From a virus: 48,862 nucleotides of DNA. Each line of letters begins with the position of its first letter. The stretch's first letter is position 1. The notes under the pieces were generated by a model. The model had not been told where the DNA came from. It did not search any database and worked only from the letters and a program-made list of their open reading frames with translations. Positions 2,366 through 48,862 of this stretch are shown in pieces. A program made the position numbers and the translations under genes. The stretch spans positions 1 through 48,862 of the IMG/VR virus record IMGVR_UViG_3300030202_004216. One strand, written 5' to 3'.

Positions 2366-3150
2366 CACTCACCCTCCTTGCCCTGCTGGGCTAGGGCTGC
2401 TTCGTGTTCAGCCTTGATCGCCAGCACCTCGCTGTGGTCAATATCGCCGCGCAGGTACGCATCCAGCTCGACATAGGTTTCACTGTTCTCGCGTAGAGAC
2501 TGCTGGCACTGCTCAAGCAGCCATTGCTGGGCAGCAATCCGCGCCTTGTCTGCTTCAATAATTAGGGCCATTTCACGCATAGCAGGCGCTAGATCTTGTG
2601 GGCGATCTTCAAAACCTTCTACCGGCTCGCTGATGCCTACAGATCTGGGGATGCCAGTGCACTGTCTGACGGCCATGTTATGCATGGCGTAGTCATCTCT
2701 CTGACGGTAAAGCTGCTCAAGAATAGCCTTGTCTGCTGCGTGGGCGGCTTGCAACCTTTCCGCTTCAGCTTGCAACCTTTCGTGGTCGGTGAGGCGGATG
2801 AGCGCGGTTGCTGAAGCCGAAAGCCGCAAACGAACCTTTGCCATTTCTTTCGGCAGCAACAAAACATGAGATCCGCTTTCGCTTTCAAACACGTCGTACC
2901 CTGCAACTTCAGGCACGCCGGATCGCGCCTCTTGATAGGTGTAAGTCTCCCGGCGATTCCACATGGCTCTGACCGCCTCTTTCGCCTCGGCAATCATGCC
3001 TGCGCCGCACCCGCACTCGATAACGTGCGAGCCAGGGTGATCAGGGACGCCCAGCGCTTTCAGTGGGCCGCTATGGGTATGCGGCTCGATAGCGCGCTCA
3101 AGCGGATCGGCTCCGCAGAACGGGCATGGCAACACCTCCGGCTTACTCAT
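2365..3150 (-). CDS. Lar-like (restriction alleviation family) zinc-ribbon protein with coiled-coil extension
   Basis: The start is placed at ATG 3150, giving 261 residues, because GGGGG precedes it and it overlaps the upstream gene's stop. The open frame upstream of this ATG lacks a credible start. Residues 6-60 carry the Lar-type signature: LPCPFCG near the N-terminus, a second pair in IECGCGAGM, and the closing MWNRRE. Known Lar proteins relieve type I restriction in Rac prophage, but many phage proteins share only the fold, so the role is inferred. The C-terminal two thirds are charged and helical (coiled coil), unlike the roughly 60-residue classical Lar. Confidence 0.75.
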   Translation of the reverse strand: MSKPEVLPCPFCGADPLERAIEPHTHSGPLKALGVPDHPGSHVIECGCGAGMIAEAKEAVRAMWNRRETYTYQEARSGVPEVAGYDVFESESGSHVLLLPKEMAKVRLRLSASATALIRLTDHERLQAEAERLQAAHAADKAILEQLYRQRDDYAMHNMAVRQCTGIPRSVGISEPVEGFEDRPQDLAPAMREMALIIEADKARIAAQQWLLEQCQQSLRENSETYVELDAYLRGDIDHSEVLAIKAEHEAALAQQGKEGE

Positions 3151-4704: not shown

Positions 4705-4981
4705 GGCCGCCACCCTCGCTGTCGATTCCAATGGGCTCAAAGCCTTCAATCATCGGTGGGTTGTCGGTGCGAACGCGGCATTCTGCGCAGCCGTTACCGC
4801 AGGCGCCGCAGAACTGCAGGCCTGCGGCAATGGCCTCGCTTTCGGGCTGCATGGCGTGGCGGGCATCGTTGATGCGCTGCTGGCCTTCATGCCAGAGCTG
4901 GGCAAGTTGGGCTTCAGTCATCCATTGATCCACGCGAATATGTACGCGCGGCTCTGGTGGCGCCTTCGGTTTGGCGGTCAT
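4697..4981 (-). CDS. hypothetical early protein with CxxC motifs
   Basis: 94 residues from ATG 4981, preceded by AAGGAT at about 9 bases. A helical N-terminal half (MTEAQLAQLWHEGQQRINDA) leads to FCGACGNGCAEC, a cysteine cluster that may hold zinc. The C-terminus overlaps the next gene. I do not recognise the family. Confidence 0.7.
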   Translation of the reverse strand: MTAKPKAPPEPRVHIRVDQWMTEAQLAQLWHEGQQRINDARHAMQPESEAIAAGLQFCGACGNGCAECRVRTDNPPMIEGFEPIGIDSEGGGHD

Positions 4982-5074
4982 GTGGGTAGATCCTTTTCAG
5001 GCTTGTGCGCCCTTGGCCGGCGCAGTTGGAATTTCTGGAAGAAGTCACGGCGGCTACCTTCTGTCTGGCGTCCG
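4982..5074 (-). other. short stretch with no convincing gene
   Basis: All three minus frames are locally open but none has a good start. One frame without ATG, GTG or TTG ends in a TGA overlapping the ATG at 4981, which looks like the tail of a lost gene. Another has a GTG preceded by AAGGT but would overlap most of the next gene. I regard it as a decayed remnant continuous with the interrupted gene at 5075-5338. Confidence 0.3.
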
Positions 5075-18623: not shown

Positions 18624-19252
18624 AAGCCCTTAGCGGAAAGCCGAAGACATGCGCCGTCCGAGGCTGCTCAAACAAGTTTGTCCCGCGTCGTCATTTCGAG
18701 GCGTGGTGCTCGCCGGAGTGCGGCGCAAAGCTCGCTCGGGCATTGCAGGAGAAGGATAGAGCGGAGAAGTCCAAGCGCGAGCGCCGTGAGAGCCGGGAGG
18801 CGAAGCAGCGCCTCAAGACCAAGGGCGACCACCTGCGCGAGGCTCAGGCGGCATTCAACGCCTACATACGCGAGCGTGACAAAGGGCTGCCGTGCATCAG
18901 CTGTGGATCTCTGCCGAATAACGGCGACCTGCTGACCGGGAGTCGTATTGATGCGGGCCATTACCGCTCAACCGGTTCCTGTCCGGAACTCCGGTTCGAG
19001 CCGCTCAACTGCCATGCCCAGTGCGTCAAGTGCAACCGCAACCTGTCGGGCAATGCCGTTGAGTACCGCATCAGGCTGATCAAGCGCATCGGCGCGGCCT
19101 CGGTTGAGTGGCTGGAAGGCCTGCATGAGGCCAAGCGCTACACCATCGAAGACCTGAAGGCTATCAAGGCCAAGTACCGGGAAAAGACGCGGGAACTCAA
19201 GCGGGCGAATGATAAAACTACAGCGGGGGAGCTGGCACATGGCGAGGCGTGA
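18620..19252 (+). CDS. ninG: NinG/Rap-like recombination nuclease
   Basis: 210 residues from ATG 18620, overlapping the ninB stop. Metal-binding cysteines lie near the N-terminus (TCAVRGCSNKF, WCSPECG) and again in LPCISCGS and CHAQCVKCNRNLSGNAVEY, with a central DAGHYRSTG. This is the NinG signature. Lambda Rap (NinG) is a structure-specific nuclease that cuts recombination intermediates. A charged coiled coil links the two zinc regions. Confidence 0.95.
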   Translation: MKALSGKPKTCAVRGCSNKFVPRRHFEAWCSPECGAKLARALQEKDRAEKSKRERRESREAKQRLKTKGDHLREAQAAFNAYIRERDKGLPCISCGSLPNNGDLLTGSRIDAGHYRSTGSCPELRFEPLNCHAQCVKCNRNLSGNAVEYRIRLIKRIGAASVEWLEGLHEAKRYTIEDLKAIKAKYREKTRELKRANDKTTAGELAHGEA

Positions 19253-19601
19253 CGCGGAAGAGCTGCTGACCAACTGGGGGCGCTGGGTATGGCATCAAGC
19301 CGGGGTGCCTCGGTACACCAGCCCGATGTTCGCCCTGATGCGGGATAACGTGGCGCAGGACTCGGTTCCGGCGCCTGTGATCACCGACGACGAGGCGCTG
19401 ATGATCGACGCTATCGTCGCCCGCATGTGGCGGCGCGATGAGCAGATGGCGGACTGCCTGCGGATTTACTACTGCACCAGCAGGACGATGCACGGCGTCG
19501 GGATTGTCCTGGGCATCCACCGCAAGAAAGTGGCAGAGCTGCTGCTGGCTGGCAGGGCATACGTTGAGGGGAGTATCGACCGATTAAGGGAAGCGGCGTA
19601 A
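19239..19601 (+). CDS. Q-type late antiterminator
   Basis: 120 residues from ATG 19239. It has the ARRDAEELLTNWGRW start and a C-terminal region-4-like helix-turn-helix (CLRIYYCTSRTMHGVGIVLG, HRKKVAELLLAGRAYVE), typical of phage antitermination protein Q families. It should load at the late promoter near 20512 and let RNA polymerase read through the terminators at 20577-20638 into lysis and virion genes. Its 3' end faces the aca1 gene across 10 bp. Confidence 0.88.
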   Translation: MARRDAEELLTNWGRWVWHQAGVPRYTSPMFALMRDNVAQDSVPAPVITDDEALMIDAIVARMWRRDEQMADCLRIYYCTSRTMHGVGIVLGIHRKKVAELLLAGRAYVEGSIDRLREAA

Positions 19602-19611
19602 ATCTGGCAGC

Positions 19612-19821
19612 TCACTCGGCCGCCAGTTGCTCCAGCGCGAACTGCACGGTGTACGGCGCCGGCCGGAAACTGGCGCTGCCCTCGTCGCTCAGGTAGTACC
19701 GCATCACGCGGTCGCTGATGCCGAGCAGCTGTGCAGCCTGTCGCTGGCTGACGGATGCGGCCTCAAGCAGCCCGCGCAGGTAGCGCGGGTCTGGGTTGTG
19801 GTTTGAGGCGTCAGGTTTCAC
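19612..19821 (-). CDS. aca1: Aca1-family anti-CRISPR-associated repressor
   Basis: 69 residues with very high similarity, from memory, to Aca1 of Pseudomonas phages such as JBD30: shared TPDASNH-like start, DPRYLRGLL, SQR.AA.LLG.SDRVMRYYLS, RPAPYTVQFALE. The helix-turn-helix is about residues 24-45. Aca1 binds inverted repeats in acr promoters and shuts them down after the initial burst of expression. Here it is the last gene of a three-gene minus operon and overlaps the upstream gene by 4 bp, the standard acr-aca arrangement. It diagnoses the locus as anti-CRISPR. Confidence 0.95.
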   Translation of the reverse strand: MKPDASNHNPDPRYLRGLLEAASVSQRQAAQLLGISDRVMRYYLSDEGSASFRPAPYTVQFALEQLAAE

Positions 19822-20183
19822 TCGGCGCGCATCTCGTCTGTAACGATCAGGCGGCTTTTCAGGCTGGATTCGAGCGCTCTATCGTAAACGTCGTCGCCGT
19901 TTTTGCCGATGATGCTGCTCTGCCCGCCGCTCTCAACGACAGCGTACTCCTCGCCATCTACTTCAAACCAGTAGCGGGTAGCCTCGTTCTGCCAGTCCTG
20001 CTCTTTCTCGATGTATTTAGCAGTGCCGATCAGGTCGTGGGCCAGCTCTACAGCCTGCTGATCTTCGTCGGTGATGCCGAGGGCCAGCAGGGCAGCGCCG
20101 TCTTCCAGTGTGGCGCGGATTGCCTGTGCATCTTCAGCGCCGGCTTCTTTGATCAGGTCGATGATGTCTTGTGCAGTTTTCAT
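19818..20183 (-). CDS. candidate anti-CRISPR protein, 121 residues
   Basis: Placed directly before aca1 with a 4-bp overlap. GAGGGTAAGG precedes ATG 20183. The product is acidic, as many Acr proteins are. An N-terminal helical half (MKTAQDIIDLIKEAGAEDAQ, AVELAHDLIGTAKYIEKEQD) is followed by a beta-rich part (TRYWFEVDGEEYAVVES) and a helical tail ending VTDEMRAE. It matches none of the AcrIF, AcrIE or AcrIC sequences I can recall. Assignment rests on aca1 linkage, size, charge and the nearby type I-F system. Confidence 0.8.
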   Translation of the reverse strand: MKTAQDIIDLIKEAGAEDAQAIRATLEDGAALLALGITDEDQQAVELAHDLIGTAKYIEKEQDWQNEATRYWFEVDGEEYAVVESGGQSSIIGKNGDDVYDRALESSLKSRLIVTDEMRAE

Positions 20184-20193
20184 GGCCTTACCC

Positions 20194-20382
20194 TCAGTTG
20201 TAGCTGCGAACTATGAAGCCGACATTTTCAGCACCAAGATCGGCAGTGATCATTGCGTTGAATGCGTCAACGCGAGCGTTGTGGCCTTCTTCGTGGCGCC
20301 GGGCTTCCAGTTCTGCCAGCGCGGCTTTATGGGCTTCGGTCATTGAGGCTTGCTGTGCTTTTTGCTTGCTTGGGCGGATCAT
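20194..20382 (-). CDS. candidate anti-CRISPR protein, 62 residues
   Basis: First gene of the aca1 operon. AAGGAG stands 6-7 bases ahead of ATG 20382. The protein is basic at its start (MIRPSKQKAQQ), then a charged helix (EAHKAALAELEARRHEEGHN) and a mixed end (MITADLGAENVGFIVRSYN). It is short for an Acr, but members of 50-80 residues are known. No similarity to a named Acr is apparent to me. It could be an Acr, an accessory protein, or unrelated cargo. Confidence 0.7.
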   Translation of the reverse strand: MIRPSKQKAQQASMTEAHKAALAELEARRHEEGHNARVDAFNAMITADLGAENVGFIVRSYN

Positions 20383-20429
20383 GGTGTATCTCCTTGGGTT
20401 CGCCTCGCCGTTGTGGCTGGCATGTGTTT

Positions 20430-20458
20430 ATATTAGGCACATTGTTCCTAATGCGCAA
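20430..20458 (-). promoter_or_regulatory. promoter and Aca1 operator of the acr-aca1 operon
   Basis: On the minus strand, TTGCGC (20453-20458) and TAATAT (20430-20435) are 17 bp apart. The spacer holds TTAGGCACATTGTTCCTAA (20433-20451, plus-strand reading), a palindrome with 9-base arms and a single mismatch. A protein bound here would block RNA polymerase, as described for Aca1 at acr promoters. The leader to the first gene is about 40 bases. Confidence 0.82.
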
Positions 20459-20511
20459 GCAGAGAACGAAAAGAATTTCACGATGCCGACGAACGGTATC
20501 TCATTCATTCG

Positions 20512-20540: not shown

Positions 20541-20576
20541 GTGCCTACATTGCGGTTTTACCGCTCCGAACATAGA

Positions 20577-20600
20577 ACCCGGCCACGCGCCGGGTTTTTT
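20577..20600 (+). terminator. first late-leader terminator
   Basis: ACCCGG/CCGGGT stem with a short loop followed by six T residues, about 30 bp after the expected late transcription start. Probable tR'-type terminator that Q must override. Confidence 0.85.
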
Positions 20601-20613
20601 ATGCCCTTTTCAC

Positions 20614-20638
20614 AGCCCGCCACTGAGCGGGCTTTTTC
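20614..20638 (+). terminator. second late-leader terminator
   Basis: AGCCCGC/GCGGGCT with a CACTGA loop and a run of T residues. Together with the terminator just upstream it should stop late transcription tightly in the lysogen. Confidence 0.85.
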
Positions 20639-20673
20639 ATTTCCGCCCCGTGAGGGCCAGTGGAATGCGGACT

Positions 20674-20880
20674 ATGACTGATCGAGTGACGACAGGCGCG
20701 TCGTACAGTGGCGCAGCAGTAAGCGTGCTGGCGGGCCTGACCCTGACGGAGTGGGGCATCGTCGTCGGCATTATCACGGCGATTCTGACCTTTGGGGTCA
20801 ATGTCTGGTACCAGCATCGCCGGGATCAGCGCGAGCAGCGCCTGGTTGACGCGAACATCGATAGGCTGGGGCGGGAGTGA
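20674..20880 (+). CDS. holin
   Basis: 68 residues from ATG 20674. An N-terminal short hydrophobic stretch (YSGAAVSVLAGLTL) and one clear membrane helix (WGIVVGIITAILTFGVNVWY) are followed by the basic tail QHRRDQREQR, matching the HP1-type phage holin family. It would form the inner-membrane lesion that triggers lysis. It overlaps the endolysin gene by 4 bp. Confidence 0.85.
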   Translation: MTDRVTTGASYSGAAVSVLAGLTLTEWGIVVGIITAILTFGVNVWYQHRRDQREQRLVDANIDRLGRE

Positions 20881-41827: not shown

Positions 41828-41890
41828 ACGGATTCGAAATCCGTTGTACGGGCAACCGTACCCAGGGTTCGAATCCCTGACTCTCCGCCA
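41828..41890 (+). other. attR: 3' 63 bp of tRNA-Ser(CGA)
   Basis: The anticodon arm (ACGGA TTCGAAA TCCGT, anticodon CGA), long variable arm (TACGGGCAACCGTA), T arm (CAGGGTTCGAATCCCTG) and CTCTCCG-CCA end of a serine tRNA are present. The acceptor 5' strand GGAGAG and D arm are missing: sequence to the left is phage DNA. This is the duplicated segment expected when a phage integrates into a tRNA 3' end. The working tRNA should lie left of the integrase. Confidence 0.9.
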
Positions 41891-41931
41891 ATAAACAAAA
41901 ACGCCCAGCCTAGCTGGGCGTTTTTGTTTAT
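41891..41931. terminator. tRNA-Ser terminator, bidirectional
   Basis: A perfect 19-bp inverted repeat around a CTA loop, with GC-rich core ACGCCCAGC/GCTGGGCGT and A/T-rich flanks ending TTTTTGTTTAT. It starts right after the CCA end and is the original host terminator of the tRNA-Ser gene, now cut off from the intact tRNA by the prophage. It also shields the cas operon from late phage transcription. Confidence 0.9.
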
Positions 41932-42364: not shown

Positions 42365-43342
42365 ATGGATGATTTTTCCCCTTCAGACCTGAAGACCATT
42401 CTTCACTCCAAGCGCGCGAATATCTATTACCTGCAGCATTGCCGGGTGCTGGTTAATGGTGGACGTGTTGAGTACGTGACGGATGAAGGCAAGCAGTCCC
42501 TTTACTGGAATATTCCCATCGCCAACACCACCACGGTTCTTCTTGGGACGGGCACATCGATTACTCAGGCAGCCATGCGTGAGCTGGCTAAAGCCGGCGT
42601 GCTGGTCGGGTTCTGCGGTGGTGGCGGCACACCGTTGTTCAGTGCCAACGAGGTCGATGTAGAGGTCGCCTGGCTCTCGCCGCAAAGCGAGTATCGTCCC
42701 ACAGAGTATCTGCAGGCCTGGGTGCGCTTCTGGTTTGATGATGCCCAGCGACTGGCGGCCGCCAAGCTGTTTCAGCGCATGCGCTTGGAGCGTATTGAAA
42801 GGACTTGGCTTAACAGTCGTGTCTTTAATGATGCCGGCTTTTCAGTGCCTGCCGAGCGCCTCAAGCACCTGATTGCAGAGGCTGCTTCTCGGAATGAGGC
42901 GGCAGGTGACAACACCATGCTGTTGACCGAAGAGGCGCGCCTGACCAAAGCGCTGTTCAAACTAGCGGTTGATGCCACAGGGTACGGCGACTTTACCCGT
43001 GCCAAGCGCGGCTCGGGAGCGGACCCGGCCAACCGGTTTCTTGATCACGGCAATTACCTGGCCTACGGGTTGGCGGCGACTGCAACCTGGGTGCTGGGTC
43101 TGCCCCATGGCCTGTCTGTGCTGCATGGCAAAACGCGGCGAGGTGGCCTGGTCTTTGACGTTGCGGACCTAGTAAAGGACGCCACCATTCTGCCGCAGGC
43201 ATTTATCTCGGCCATGCGGGGGGATGAGGAGCAGGAATTCCGTCAGGCGTGTATTGAAAACCTGAGCCGCAGTGAGTCGCTGGACTTCATGATCGAATCG
43301 ATCAAGACGGTCGCTGATGCGCTGGGAGACGGTAGCCAGTGA
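42365..43342 (+). CDS. cas1: type I-F CRISPR integrase Cas1
   Basis: 325 residues, the normal size for Cas1 of subtype I-F. Active-site residues Glu190 (LLTEEARL), His254 (SVLHGKTRRGG), and Asp265/Asp268 (FDVADLVKD) coincide with those of Pseudomonas aeruginosa Cas1. With Cas2-3 it captures and inserts new spacers. The N-terminal beta domain (YYLQHCRVLVNGGRVEYVTD) and I-F-specific LGTGTSITQAAMRELAKAGV are present. First gene of the operon. Its stop overlaps the next start. Confidence 0.97.
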   Translation: MDDFSPSDLKTILHSKRANIYYLQHCRVLVNGGRVEYVTDEGKQSLYWNIPIANTTTVLLGTGTSITQAAMRELAKAGVLVGFCGGGGTPLFSANEVDVEVAWLSPQSEYRPTEYLQAWVRFWFDDAQRLAAAKLFQRMRLERIERTWLNSRVFNDAGFSVPAERLKHLIAEAASRNEAAGDNTMLLTEEARLTKALFKLAVDATGYGDFTRAKRGSGADPANRFLDHGNYLAYGLAATATWVLGLPHGLSVLHGKTRRGGLVFDVADLVKDATILPQAFISAMRGDEEQEFRQACIENLSRSESLDFMIESIKTVADALGDGSQ

Positions 43343-46300
43343 ATGTCTTGCTGGTCTCGCAATGCAGCAAGCGTGCGCTCATCGAAACCCGCCGCATCCT
43401 CGACCAGTTTGCCGAACGTCGAGGCGAACGGACCTGGCAGACACCGATCACGCTGGCCGGCTTGCAGACCCTGCACAAGCTGTTGCGCAAAACGGCGCGC
43501 AAGAACACGGCTGTCGCCTGCCACTGGATCCGTGGCAAGGACCATACCGAGCTGCTTTGGATTGTTGGTGATGCCCGGCAATTCAATGGTCAGGGTGCGA
43601 CGCCAACCAATATGACCCGGCGTGACGTGCTGCGCGCCGGTGATGAGGATGACTGGCACAGCGCCGAAGACATTCGTCTGCTCGCCTGCATTGCCGCGCT
43701 ATTTCATGATTTTGGCAAGGCAGTTCTGGCTTTTCAGAACAAGTTGCGCAACAACCGCGCGGTGGCAGACCCGTACCGGCACGAGTGGATATCCCTGCGC
43801 TTGTTCGAGGCCTTTGTTGATAACGAAAGCGACGAGCACTGGTTGCAGCGATTGGCAGCAGTGGATGCCAAGGCAACCAAGGCATGCGTAAAACTGCTGA
43901 AATGCGATGGGCTAGGTGAGCATCGTGGTCCTTTTGCGACGTTGCCGCCTTTGGCCAAAGCGGTCGGTTGGCTGATCGTCAGTCATCACCGCGTGCCTGG
44001 GTCGCCGGAACCGTTTCAGGAAAATCACATCAAGGTCTTGCCCGATGCTATTGGCAAGCGCTGGTGTGGTGAGCGTGCAGAGGCTACTCAGGCAGAGTTG
44101 AAACAGTGCTGGAACCTCAAGGCCGGGTTACCTTTTGACAGTCGGCATTGGTGCGAGCATGCCCGCAACCTGGCAGCTCAGATGTTGCGGCGGGCGGGGC
44201 TGCTTGGCGTGAACTGGTGCGCAAACGCCTATGCCATGCACACCGCACGCATGGCCCTGATGCTGGCTGATCATTATTACTCCGGCCAGCCCAGTCATGC
44301 GCGTTACGGGGATGCCGAGTTTGCCCTGTTTGCCAACACTGACAGGCAAACGCGAAACCTTAAGCAGCGCCTGGATGAGCATCTTATCGGTGTGGAGGTG
44401 AACGCCAACCGCATTATGCGCAGCCTGCCGCAGCTGACTGCCAGTTTGCCGAGCATTGCCCGGCACAAAGGCTTTCGTCAGCGCAGCGCCGACCGACGCT
44501 TTGCCTGGCAAGACAGGGCCTTCGATCTGGCCGAAGGGTTACAGCACAAAAGTGCTGAGCAAGGCTTCTTCGGTGTCAACATGGCGTCTACCGGCTGCGG
44601 CAAAACCCTGGCCAATGGCCGCATCATGTATGCGCTTGCCGATCCCGTGCGGGGTGCGCGCTTCAGTATCGCGCTTGGCCTGCGGACCCTGACCTTGCAG
44701 ACCGGTGAGGCATACCGCCAGCGTCTGGCGCTGGGCGAGCAGGACCTGGCAGTGATGGTGGGTGGTGCGGCGGTACGAGAGCTGTATGAGCACAAACTGC
44801 GCAACGGGTCGGAGTCGGCTGCTCCGCTGTTGCCTGAGTGGCAGCATGTGCACTTTGAAGGCAGCATGGTCGATGGGCCGCTCAGCCGCTGGCTGGCCGA
44901 AAGTCCGGCAACCCAGCGGCTGCTCCACGCGCCCCTGCTGGCCTGCACCATTGATCACCTGATGCCAGCCACCGAGGGGACACGTGGGGGGCAGCAGATT
45001 GCCCCGATGCTGCGTTTGATGAGCTCCGATCTGGTGCTGGATGAGCCGGATGACTTCGGCCTGGAAGACCTGCCGGCACTGGCACGTCTGGTGAACTGGG
45101 CCGGCATGCTCGGTAGCCGGGTATTGCTGTCGTCCGCGACCCTGCCGCCGGCGCTGATTCAGGGGCTGTTCGAGGCCTATCTGGCGGGGCGCCGCCAGTA
45201 TCAGGCTAACCGAGGGCAACCGGGGCGGCCACTAGCGGTGTGCTGCGCCTGGTTTGACGAGTTCGCCCCGTCAGCAGGTGAGCACGGCGACGCAGACAGT
45301 TTCCTCCTTCAGCATCAGGCGTTTGTGTCGCAGCGGCTGGGTAAGCTGGAAACCCGGCAGCTGGAGGATAATCGGCGCAAGGCGTTGATCAGGCCCCTGG
45401 ACATTCAGCAGGGATTGCCAGAGGTAGAGCTTTATGGTGCCTTTGCCGCGCACCTGCGCCAGCAGATTGCCGAACTGCATGCGGCGCACGGCATGGCCGA
45501 CCCTGATAGTGGCAAGCGCTTCAGTGTTGGACTGGTGCGCATGGCCAATATCCATCCGCTGGTGAATGTAGCTCAAGCGTTTTGCGCTATGCCGGCAGAT
45601 GCCGACACTCGGATCCATTTGTGTGTTTACCACTCGCAGCACCCATTGCTGGTGCGCTCGGCGATTGAGGGGCAGCTCGACAGTCTGCTGGCCCGGCACG
45701 CGCCTGATAGCTGGTGGGCCAGCGCGGCGGTTAGAGACATTCTGGATGCTCACCCGGAGAGCAATCACATTCTGGTCGTGCTGGCCACGCCGGTCGCTGA
45801 GGTTGGGCGCGACCATGACTACGACTGGGGCATTGTCGAGCCCTCTTCCATGCGCTCGATTATTCAATTGGCGGGACGGGTGCGTCGGCATCGTCCGGGT
45901 ACTGTCGCAGCGCCTAACCTTTATCTGCTGGACACCAATCTGAAGCATCTGCGTAGCGGTCTGGCGTCCGAGGCGTACTGCCGCCCCGGCTTTGAAAGCC
46001 GCGAGTTTCGTCTGCGCAGCCACCTGTTGCACGAGCTGCTCAGCGACGAGCAATGGCAGCATATTGATGCACGAAGCCGCATCCGGCAGCGGGACAATGC
46101 CGACCCGGCAGACAACCTGGTGGACCTGGAACATGAAGTTACCCGGCAATGGGTTCAGGGAGCTGCCGAAGGCTCACCGCTCAAAGTGGTGCCTGCCAGC
46201 CTTTGGTGGCGTACTTGCGCCGCGCTGAGCTCTGTACTTCAGCGACAGCAGCCCTTCCGTTACGACCCGCAAGGGCGTCAGCGCTATGTGCTGATGCCTG

Positions 46301-46572
46301 ATGACGGCAAAACGGTATTGCATCTGCTGGATAGGGAAGGGCAACTGGTACCGGCAGACAATCTGAAAACCTTCATCAACCTTGAGCTGGCGCAAGGGAT
46401 CAGTCTCTGGGGGGTGACGGATTATCTGACGGAGCTGGAGCAACTGGCCGAGCAGTTGGACATGGAGCCGGAGCAGGCGGCACGCCGTTATGGCTGGTTG
46501 GATTTACCGGCAACAGGGTGTGACAACGGATGGTGTTATCAGCCGCTCTTGGGCTTTAACCGGAACACGTAG
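43339..46572 (+). CDS. cas2-3: type I-F Cas2-Cas3 fusion nuclease-helicase
   Basis: 1077 residues from GTG 43339. Residues 1-95 form the Cas2 domain (MNVLLVSQCSKRALIETRRI). The HD nuclease follows with His123-Asp124 (FHDFGKA) and VSHHRVP. The superfamily 2 helicase has Walker A STGCGKT (about 417-423), an acidic DEPD near 568, SSATLP near 597, and QLAGRVRRHR near 845. It acts in spacer acquisition with Cas1 and shreds target DNA recruited by the Csy complex. All key motifs are intact. Confidence 0.97.
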   Translation: MNVLLVSQCSKRALIETRRILDQFAERRGERTWQTPITLAGLQTLHKLLRKTARKNTAVACHWIRGKDHTELLWIVGDARQFNGQGATPTNMTRRDVLRAGDEDDWHSAEDIRLLACIAALFHDFGKAVLAFQNKLRNNRAVADPYRHEWISLRLFEAFVDNESDEHWLQRLAAVDAKATKACVKLLKCDGLGEHRGPFATLPPLAKAVGWLIVSHHRVPGSPEPFQENHIKVLPDAIGKRWCGERAEATQAELKQCWNLKAGLPFDSRHWCEHARNLAAQMLRRAGLLGVNWCANAYAMHTARMALMLADHYYSGQPSHARYGDAEFALFANTDRQTRNLKQRLDEHLIGVEVNANRIMRSLPQLTASLPSIARHKGFRQRSADRRFAWQDRAFDLAEGLQHKSAEQGFFGVNMASTGCGKTLANGRIMYALADPVRGARFSIALGLRTLTLQTGEAYRQRLALGEQDLAVMVGGAAVRELYEHKLRNGSESAAPLLPEWQHVHFEGSMVDGPLSRWLAESPATQRLLHAPLLACTIDHLMPATEGTRGGQQIAPMLRLMSSDLVLDEPDDFGLEDLPALARLVNWAGMLGSRVLLSSATLPPALIQGLFEAYLAGRRQYQANRGQPGRPLAVCCAWFDEFAPSAGEHGDADSFLLQHQAFVSQRLGKLETRQLEDNRRKALIRPLDIQQGLPEVELYGAFAAHLRQQIAELHAAHGMADPDSGKRFSVGLVRMANIHPLVNVAQAFCAMPADADTRIHLCVYHSQHPLLVRSAIEGQLDSLLARHAPDSWWASAAVRDILDAHPESNHILVVLATPVAEVGRDHDYDWGIVEPSSMRSIIQLAGRVRRHRPGTVAAPNLYLLDTNLKHLRSGLASEAYCRPGFESREFRLRSHLLHELLSDEQWQHIDARSRIRQRDNADPADNLVDLEHEVTRQWVQGAAEGSPLKVVPASLWWRTCAALSSVLQRQQPFRYDPQGRQRYVLMPDDGKTVLHLLDREGQLVPADNLKTFINLELAQGISLWGVTDYLTELEQLAEQLDMEPEQAARRYGWLDLPATGCDNGWCYQPLLGFNRNT

Positions 46573-46590
46573 CAACGCAGGGGGGCAAAC

Positions 46591-47898
46591 ATGGAAGAAA
46601 CGGGTACTACCATCACAGTGAGCAAGATCAGGCAGGTCATAGGCGAATTCATCCAAATTCGCCTGCAAGCCAAGCTCGACAAGCTCAAGGAGGGGCAGCA
46701 TGAGGAGCGTGAGAAGCTGCTGGCAGCCCATGAACCTGAGGCCTGGTTGGCGGATGCGGCTCGCCGGGTAAACCAGATTCAGCAGGTCACGCATGCAATC
46801 AAGTACATCCATCCTGATGCCAGGGGTACCAACTTGTTCAGCGCTGGTAACTCTCTAGCGGGCCATCTTTGCGTTGGGACCCATATTCTGGGTGAAGGCA
46901 TGGCACCGGATGTTGTTGGCAATGCCGCCGCCCTGGATATCTACAAGTTTCTTCGTCTTGAAGTGGCAGGCCGCAGTTTGCTTGCCTTGGCACTGGAACG
47001 GCATCCGGCTCTGCGCGAAGCGCTGTCGGCGGATGCCAACAAGGCAGATGAGTCGATGGGTGCCTTTGCCGGGCTGGTCGAGGCCAAGGGCAAGCCGGCC
47101 TCGCATACGCTGGCCAAGCAACTTTACTGGCCGCTGGGAGGTGGCCAATACCATCTGCTGGCGCCGTTGTTTCCCAGTTCACTGGTCAGCACTGTCTGGA
47201 GTACGCTGCGCGAGCATCGGTTTTCCGATGATGCCAGGGCCGCACGCGAGGCTGCGCGCAACAAGACCGCTCACGCTCACGGTTATCATGAATACCCCAA
47301 TGTGGTTGTGCAGAAGTTTGGCGGTACCAAGCCGCAGAACATCAGTCAGCTCAATAGTGAGCGCTACGGCGAGAATCATCTGCTGCCGTCAGTGCCGCCG
47401 TCATGGCAATCCCCGGAGGTACGCCCGCCCCTCAATAGCGACAGTATTTTTGTCCGTGGCTTTGCCAGCCAGCGCGTAGTGCGCGAGGGCATTGAGGATC
47501 TGCGCCGCTATCTGCAGCGAGTCAAGGACGTTAACAACAAACCGGTGCGTGAGGGCCGGGCGCGACGGGTGCAGGCACTGTTTGACGCCTTGCTGCACTA
47601 CGCTGCCCAACTGTGGGACCTGCCTGCCGGCTGGACAGCCAACCTGGAATGCAAACTGAACGCCGCAGAACAATGCTGGCTCGACCCGCAGCGCTGCGCT
47701 CTGGATCAGGGGTTCGCCGAGCGTTACCAGCAGTCCGACTGGCAGGAGCAGATTTGCAGCCGCTTTGCCAACTGGTTGAACGCCAGGCTGTTTGAGGCGG
47801 GCAAAGGGTTGTCGGTGGGTGAGAACGAAGCGCAGGAATGGCGTCGTCTGCTGGACCGTGAACTGACCATGCTGCACAGGGAGTTGCGCCATGACTGA
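46591..47898 (+). CDS. csy1: type I-F Csy1 (Cas8f), large Cascade subunit
   Basis: 435 residues, the usual Csy1 length. KAHTHGYHEYPNVVVQKFGG-like sequence (TAHAHGYHEYPNVVVQKFG), GGTKPQNISQLNSERYGEN and FLPSVPP-like LLPSVPPSW are typical of Csy1, as is the C-terminal helical bundle end. It recognises the PAM with Csy2 and holds the 5' end of the crRNA. GGGGGG lies ahead of the ATG. It overlaps csy2 by 8 bp. Confidence 0.95.
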   Translation: MEETGTTITVSKIRQVIGEFIQIRLQAKLDKLKEGQHEEREKLLAAHEPEAWLADAARRVNQIQQVTHAIKYIHPDARGTNLFSAGNSLAGHLCVGTHILGEGMAPDVVGNAAALDIYKFLRLEVAGRSLLALALERHPALREALSADANKADESMGAFAGLVEAKGKPASHTLAKQLYWPLGGGQYHLLAPLFPSSLVSTVWSTLREHRFSDDARAAREAARNKTAHAHGYHEYPNVVVQKFGGTKPQNISQLNSERYGENHLLPSVPPSWQSPEVRPPLNSDSIFVRGFASQRVVREGIEDLRRYLQRVKDVNNKPVREGRARRVQALFDALLHYAAQLWDLPAGWTANLECKLNAAEQCWLDPQRCALDQGFAERYQQSDWQEQICSRFANWLNARLFEAGKGLSVGENEAQEWRRLLDRELTMLHRELRHD

Positions 47899-48862
47899 GA
47901 TCAATAGCCTGCTCATCCTGCCGCGCTTGCGCGTTCAAGCCGCTAATGCGGTATCAGGGCCACTGACTTGGGGGTTTCCATCACCTACCGCGTTTACCGG
48001 TTTTGCCCATGCGCTGGAGCGGCGGTTGGCGGCTGACCTGCCAGCTGGCATTGCCGGAGTGGGAATAATTTGTCACCGGTTTGAGCCGCAGGTGTATCAC
48101 CCGGCGGGCAATTACACCCGTGTTTTCTGCCTGACGCGTAACCCGGTGAACAAGGATGGTGCTACCGCTTCGTTGGTAGAAGAGGGTAAGGCCCACATGG
48201 AAGTGACGCTGGTCATTGCCCTGGCCGATTGGGTGCTGGAAGACGATCGCACCGCGCTTTTGGCCTCTATCAGCCGCACGGCATTGTCCATGCGGCTGGC
48301 GGGCGGCAGCCTGCTGCCACAGCGACATGGCCCCCGCTTTGCGCCTCGGCTGGAGGAATGGCCGTCGGCCCAGGCGGACCGGCATGAGCTGTTCAGAAAG
48401 TTGCGTCGACACTGGCTGCCCGGCTTTGCCCTTACATTGCGTGAAGACCGGTTGGCACAGGGGCTGCAGCGTCTGCAGGAAACACAACCCCAGGCCACCG
48501 CACTGGATGCGCTGCTCGACCTTTCGCGGCTGAATGTTGAACCTGCTGCCGAGCCAGAGCCTGACGGCAGCATCAAGTGGCATATTCGCCGCCGTGATGG
48601 CTGGCTGGTGCCCTTGGCGATTGGCTATGCTGGCCTGTCAACGCTGTATGAACCGGGCCAGGTGCTCAACAGCCGGGACGCCGAAACGCCGTTCCGTTTT
48701 GTAGAAAGCCTTTACAGCATCGGCGAGTGGGTCAGCCCGCACCGCCTCAGCTGCCTGGAGCAACTGCTGTGGCATCACGATGCCGATCCTCAAGGCGGAA
48801 TTTACCGCTGTATCAATCGTTACACCGACTATCTGACCGATGCCGCTGAAGGCATAGCATAA
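47891..48862 (+). CDS. csy2: type I-F Csy2 (Cas5f)
   Basis: 323 residues, ending exactly at the last base of the window with TAA. INSLLILPRLRVQAANAVSG, LTWGFPSPTAFTGFAHALER and the Csy2 hallmark FEPQVY...FCLTRNPVNKDGATASL are present. It pairs with Csy1 at the crRNA 5' handle. csy3, cas6f and the CRISPR array should follow beyond the window. Confidence 0.96.
   Translation: MTEINSLLILPRLRVQAANAVSGPLTWGFPSPTAFTGFAHALERRLAADLPAGIAGVGIICHRFEPQVYHPAGNYTRVFCLTRNPVNKDGATASLVEEGKAHMEVTLVIALADWVLEDDRTALLASISRTALSMRLAGGSLLPQRHGPRFAPRLEEWPSAQADRHELFRKLRRHWLPGFALTLREDRLAQGLQRLQETQPQATALDALLDLSRLNVEPAAEPEPDGSIKWHIRRRDGWLVPLAIGYAGLSTLYEPGQVLNSRDAETPFRFVESLYSIGEWVSPHRLSCLEQLLWHHDADPQGGIYRCINRYTDYLTDAAEGIA

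Follow-up and report, generated by a model that had tools for sequence, protein, structure and literature searches.

An Aca1-regulated operon with a conserved leader hairpin and a two-module candidate anti-CRISPR in a prophage beside a type I-F CRISPR-Cas system

The window, by which we mean the whole stretch of DNA analyzed here (48,862 bases), holds a prophage and part of the adjoining host DNA. A short minus-strand operon lies in the prophage between the antiterminator Q gene and the lysis genes, and its features, together with those of the surroundings that bear on its interpretation, are as follows.

19209..19601, plus strand: antiterminator Q (PF06530, E 4e-12; phrog_79, E 1e-23), convergent with the operon
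19612..19821, minus strand: aca1 (P0001), 69 aa, helix-turn-helix (HTH) autorepressor, its GTG start overlapping the stop of the preceding gene
19818..20183, minus strand: P0002, candidate acr, 121 aa, ATG start, two-module
19821..20021, minus strand: C-module of P0002, about residues 55-121, with homologues as stand-alone genes
20022..20183, minus strand: N-module of P0002, about residues 1-54, with homologues as stand-alone genes
20194..20382, minus strand: P0003, first gene of the operon and second candidate acr, 62 aa
20380..20424, minus strand: whole leader, 45 nt, including the Shine-Dalgarno sequence AAGGAG and the start codon
20402..20421, minus strand: 5'-leader RNA hairpin, GCC-A-GCC-ACAAC-GGC-GA-GGC
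20430..20458, minus strand: promoter, -35 TTGCGC, 17-nt spacer, -10 TAATAT, laid out as in DMS3/MP29
20432..20452, minus strand: Aca1-type operator, palindrome ATTAGGaACAATGTGCCTAAT (spacer reading ATTAGGAACAATGTGCCTAAT), between -35 and -10
20575..20880, plus strand: holin (PF16080, E 8e-12; phrog_20), first lysis gene on the operon's other side
41828..41890, plus strand: 3' part of tRNA-Ser (CGA), putative attR and right end of the prophage, from reading of the sequence
42365..48862, plus strand: host type I-F cas1, cas2-3, csy1 and csy2 (TIGR03637, TIGR02562, TIGR02564, TIGR02565, above cut-offs)

The initial annotation had described a three-gene minus-strand operon ending in Aca1, and both its coordinates and the identity of the 69-aa product are confirmed. 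The aca1 gene is the last of three consecutive minus-strand genes, with small phage genes upstream; it overlaps P0002 by 4 nt, and a 10-nt gap lies ahead of P0002. In the protein search that had been proposed as a check, P0001 matched the Aca1 structures 7vjn, 7c0g and 7fa3 over residues 2-67 (phmmer E 8e-30, the next unrelated chain scoring 0.064), phrog_3865 (E 1.5e-35) and the Aca1 proteins in 126 Pseudomonas phage records (about 76% identity; 76% for those of DMS3 and MP29). Judged by this similarity, which is far beyond chance, P0001 is a true Aca1. The locus was first given as ending at 20458, which is where the -35 box starts.

Upstream of the genes, the operator agrees with the DMS3/MP29 inverted repeat at 20 of 21 bases, and a single mismatch separates the 45-nt leader from those of MP29, which carries an annotated acrIF2, and D3112. 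Operator and leader are thus near-identical to those of operons bearing annotated acrIF2 and type I-E acr genes, and the same leader also precedes annotated acrIF1, acrIF2 and acrIF3. Nucleotide identity to DMS3/MP29 is 83-90% in the promoter and leader, absent in the middle genes and 79% in aca1; IMG/VR contig 3300029266_001422 (L002) is 84% identical from the leader through the N-module and then has a gap at the position of the C-module. Shared flanks around an unrelated middle are what an operon that exchanges its acr genes would be expected to show, and by this layout the locus is an Aca1-regulated acr-type operon of the acr-aca1 kind. The description "complete acr-aca1 operon" stands as regards the true Aca1 and the Aca1-type operator, whereas the upstream genes match no known Acr or family. 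Near the promoter, at 20486-20496, lies the motif CCGACGAACGG (partial dyad CCG-N5-CGG), which recurs 5' of acr promoters in about one third of aca1 loci, including those of Ab31 and a Xanthomonas plasmid.

Neither P0002 nor P0003 matched a validated Acr or Acr family in PDB, Pfam, NCBIfam or PHROGs, and among annotated phage records nothing beyond one Aeromonas phage protein was found; the silence of Pfam and NCBIfam weighs little, because the type I-E acr annotated in DMS3 also escaped both. The only relative found for P0003 is in L002 (94% identical). P0002 is strongly acidic (pI 4.2), and its AlphaFold2 model (pLDDT 88, pTM 0.61) predicts a helical part at residues 4-52 followed by a beta part at residues 56-93 plus helices. 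Foldseek returned no significant PDB relative for the model and, in BFVD, a single 67-aa viral protein for the C-module; profile searches of PDB with either module gave weak matches only, and one such match of the N-module, to FtsZ (0.04), disappeared with a better profile and was discarded.

A scan of genome contigs with the whole of P0002 gave no match. The N-module, taken as residues 1-53, shares 79% identity with a 56-aa gene lying ahead of a divergent Aca1 in L002 and 45% with a 72-73-aa gene (2854-3069), the only one that separates leader and aca1 in L004; it has further homologues upstream of aca1 in L082, in L084, and upstream of other HTH genes in the Aeromonas plasmid CP071152 and the Aeromonas phage phiA005. 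The C-module, here residues 54-121, is a stand-alone gene in L003, L077 and the Shewanella plasmid NZ_AP026071, where the 66-aa ORF that follows it matches no Pfam or NCBIfam family and is possibly HTH-like. In a distant L080 protein the modules are fused in the same N-to-C order. The neighbourhood search suggested for the upstream genes thus bore out an association of the N-module with aca1 or Aca1-like genes (L004, L082, L002), though not an exclusive one, since the modules also occur beside other HTH genes. Small genes lie directly 3' of stand-alone C- or N-modules in L075 (5206-5403), L076 (3132-3347) and L072 (3189-3362), those of L076 and L072 encoding HTH proteins; it is possible that these genes, from Shewanella and Aeromonas plasmids and a phage, are new Aca-type regulators. 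By association, P0002 is a candidate for a new, two-module Acr family.

The setting of the operon was assigned to a BPP-1-type podoviral prophage, and this assignment is supported: the head genes include a PF12236 head-to-tail connector (E 4e-169) and a PF20911 GP7 capsid, the terL and portal products are 43-47% identical to those of L032/L035, and the neighbours comprise NinG, lysozyme, TerS and the PF12236 portal. The location within the lysis interval had been called unexpected, a view that we do not share in light of precedents: the podovirus vB_PaeP_Tr60_Ab31, in which leader, acrIF7 and aca1 lie antisense in the corresponding interval, and L032 and L035, in which aca1 is antisense beside BPP-1-type terL and portal genes. 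Elsewhere, aca1 lies near lysozyme or NinG genes in L010, L022, L036, L062, L024 and L070. The L002 operon is co-directional with Q and that of the window is reversed, and the cassette therefore inserts as an independent unit. Plasmids and conjugative elements as well as phages are already known to carry acr genes linked to aca1 (PMC7913775). We also observed a leader, a 102-aa candidate and aca1 on the conjugative plasmid pXAC64 of Xanthomonas citri (L131, 2004-2556), and aca1 matches in 68 Xanthomonas plasmid records.

The intact type I-F Cas1, Cas2-3, Csy1 and Csy2 annotated on the same contig are indeed all full length; csy3 and cas6f fall beyond the window, as does any CRISPR array. Searches of the window found no CRISPR repeats or spacers, and no type I-F repeat with up to three mismatches allowed. 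The prophage ends on the right about 0.5 kb before cas1, at the tRNA-Ser part, which is followed by a terminator-like palindrome (41828-41931 together); no whole tRNA was found. The IMG/VR record was not trimmed to the provirus and retains the host cas genes.

The leader is predicted to fold into a hairpin of the form GCC-A-GCC-N(4-5)-GGC-NN-GGC (-9.6 kcal/mol), which starts about 10 bases after the -10 box and hence lies near the predicted 5' end of the mRNA. A covariance model finds the hairpin of the window at E 9.6e-12, the next best hit in the window scoring 0.03, and no Rfam family matched the locus above gathering scores. Of 90 distinct regions upstream of aca1, whose operators differ widely, 83 contain the hairpin. 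Its loop varies in sequence and length while the stems persist, with 93% of alignment cells paired compared with 20-37% when the stems are slid, and at two loci (L002, L065) the inner C-G is changed to G-C. The covariation score of 0.046, as against 0.013, was reached by 2 of 500 shuffles; covariation is thin because the stems hardly vary, being almost invariant with one pair showing double changes. Conservation of the hairpin could also in part reflect recombination or a role at the DNA level.

When a strict 24-base leader pattern, ATGCCAGCC-N5-GGCGAGGCGA, was scanned over all IMG/VR, it retrieved 41 sites, and Aca1 lay downstream at all 38 that had enough sequence, the other three being cut by contig ends. 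These association counts use the strict pattern because some of the sites added by a relaxed pattern are chance matches in coding genes. In the phage collection, counted separately, the leader occurs in 127 records and Aca1 in 128. At one locus (L138) leader (2466) and aca1 (4832-5044) are 2.3 kb apart, and the several small genes between them are further acr candidates. The main Aca survey (PMC9410906) makes no mention of a leader, UTR or hairpin, and we found no earlier description of an Aca1 leader hairpin in the literature searched, although one may exist elsewhere.

Copies of the hairpin also occur inside operons, where no Aca1 operator is recognizable: in L101, in L104/L082 (L082 5257-5282), in L117 and in JBD88a. 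The JBD88a copy (L129, 2504) lies directly before acrIF3, its ATG lost and its promoter decayed with the stem intact. On a P. aeruginosa plasmid (L132, about 2335-2362), an internal hairpin with an expanded loop and conserved stems precedes acrF3. A further copy, found outside the alignment in a Gammaproteobacteria MAG (L084 4889-4916; model E 2e-6), precedes an N-module gene. This locus keeps the promoter, its palindromic operator GCGTCACTAGTGACGC differs from the Aca1 type, and no Aca1 was found in the 10 kb examined; the next small ORF may encode the regulator. A hairpin without an identifiable Aca1 weakens the idea that the element is exclusive to Aca1 operons. Module operons with other HTH neighbours have 5' hairpins of their own (z -3.3 in L076, -3.1 in L072).

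These observations suggest a prophage anti-CRISPR operon with an Aca1-shut promoter, candidate Acrs as its first genes and a cis-acting leader hairpin, an explanation to which, taken whole, we assign a probability of roughly 0.8. Upon infection or induction, the strong sigma-70 promoter would be open, and the mRNA would start within a few bases of the short hairpin, which is followed by a strong ribosome-binding site, so that the candidate anti-CRISPRs P0003 and P0002 would be translated at once. Aca1, encoded by the last gene, would then accumulate, bind the palindrome between -35 and -10 and shut the promoter. We infer this early burst of transcription and the subsequent autorepression from published work on Aca1. 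By association, P0002 and/or P0003 would inhibit CRISPR-Cas, and the adjacent I-F system is the obvious candidate target. The hairpin suggests a further, post-transcriptional layer of control; most probably it acts in cis on the mRNA, shielding or insulating its 5' end so that whichever acr gene is swapped into the operon is well expressed.

The nature of the cargo admits other readings. Genes linked to aca1 are not always Acrs: an acrIC7 homologue next to aca1 showed no activity against type I-C (PMC7913775). The operon could instead be an Aca1-regulated cassette for other counter-defence or accessory proteins, such as ones that inhibit a different defence or control when lysis occurs. The lack of homology of the upstream genes to known Acrs, the occurrence of both modules beside HTH-type neighbours other than Aca1 and the position in the lysis interval would all fit such a cassette; we nevertheless regard it as distinctly unlikely, considering that its promoter, operator and leader match those found in front of annotated acr genes and that a type I-F system adjoins the prophage. 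Somewhat less doubtful than the non-Acr cassette, but still improbable, is that P0002 is a chance fusion in which one module works and the other is a relic of cassette swapping. L002, with a 56-aa N-module at the same place and no C-module, would agree with such a relic, but the recurrence of the N-to-C order in the distant L080 protein and a predicted fold that is confident throughout (pLDDT 88) argue against one.

As regards the hairpin, the main alternative is that it serves as an RNA operator for Aca1, which would then repress at both levels, DNA and mRNA, much as Aca2 reportedly does. That Aca1 follows each of the 38 assessable strict-pattern leaders, and that internal hairpins (L101, L104/L082, L117, JBD88a) lack a recognizable Aca1 operator, is what such an RNA operator would predict. 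L084, however, combines promoter, hairpin and N-module with a different palindrome and no Aca1 in 10 kb, operons that pair the modules with another HTH gene carry 5' hairpins of their own, and the leader hairpin neither resembles the DNA operator nor covers the Shine-Dalgarno sequence, upstream of which it lies. We therefore consider an Aca1 RNA operator unlikely and prefer a cis-acting 5' mRNA element, because the hairpin persists without Aca1 and before internal cistrons. The leader could also be read as an ORF for a short peptide (MPATTARR...) whose translation is coupled to that of the first acr gene, seeing that in the window and in MP29 an ATG is followed by 14 codons and a stop that overlaps the acr start. 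That ATG is lost in L010, L028, L070, L061 and the internal copies of L104 and JBD88a, and changes in loop length shift the frame in L015, L021, L038, L044 and L067 while the stems stay; on these lost ATGs and frame-breaking changes we rejected the peptide, which has very little probability left.

More broadly, and at odds that we would place slightly below even, a conserved 5' mRNA hairpin may be common to acr-aca1 operons from phages, plasmids and various bacterial genera, one that adds a post-transcriptional layer, whether as stabilizer or insulator or as Aca1 RNA operator, that is copied before internal cistrons and that persists in one operon or more where no Aca1 can be identified; such a hairpin would then be a DNA signature for new acr genes, and P0002 would represent a new two-module Acr family. 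In practical terms, the locus adds a two-module candidate Acr beside a type I-F system, and its leader hairpin provides a sequence handle, a single 24-base pattern retrieving acr-type operons from all of IMG/VR. Whether Acr output in Aca1 systems is set also at the mRNA level, as is reported of Aca2, becomes a question that is testable in a standard phage such as DMS3 or JBD30. Should its action not depend on Aca1, the hairpin would be an expression insulator that helps acr genes to be freely swapped.

Among known systems, the Mu-like Pseudomonas phages of the DMS3, MP29 and JBD30 group share with the window the Aca1 (76%), the operator palindrome, the promoter spacing, the leader and the terminal position of aca1, but they carry other acr genes in the head-gene region, whereas the operon described here runs antisense to the late genes in the lysis interval of a DnaB/Q/BPP-1-type podovirus. 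Ab31 has the same leader, a NinG/Q/lysis neighbourhood and the same antisense orientation to the late genes; it differs in its 67-aa gene between leader and aca1, which we take to be AcrIF7, in a different type of operator, in the placement of the operon between endolysin and Rz, and in an Aca1 that is 65% identical. L002 shares P0003 (94%), the N-module (79%) and a position beside Q-like and Rz genes, but there the operon runs in the direction of the late genes, has no C-module and carries a divergent Aca1-like HTH protein (61%) and a GCG-CGC variant of the hairpin. The acrIF8-aca2 operon, reportedly under dual DNA and RNA repression by Aca2, is likewise an autorepressor operon with a structured 5' leader; Aca2 belongs to a different HTH family, and the Aca1 hairpin leaves the Shine-Dalgarno sequence uncovered. 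The operon is thus of the known acr-aca1 kind and its location has precedent, and its most notable features are a candidate Acr of two modules and a leader hairpin kept across such operons, with no earlier description in the papers searched.
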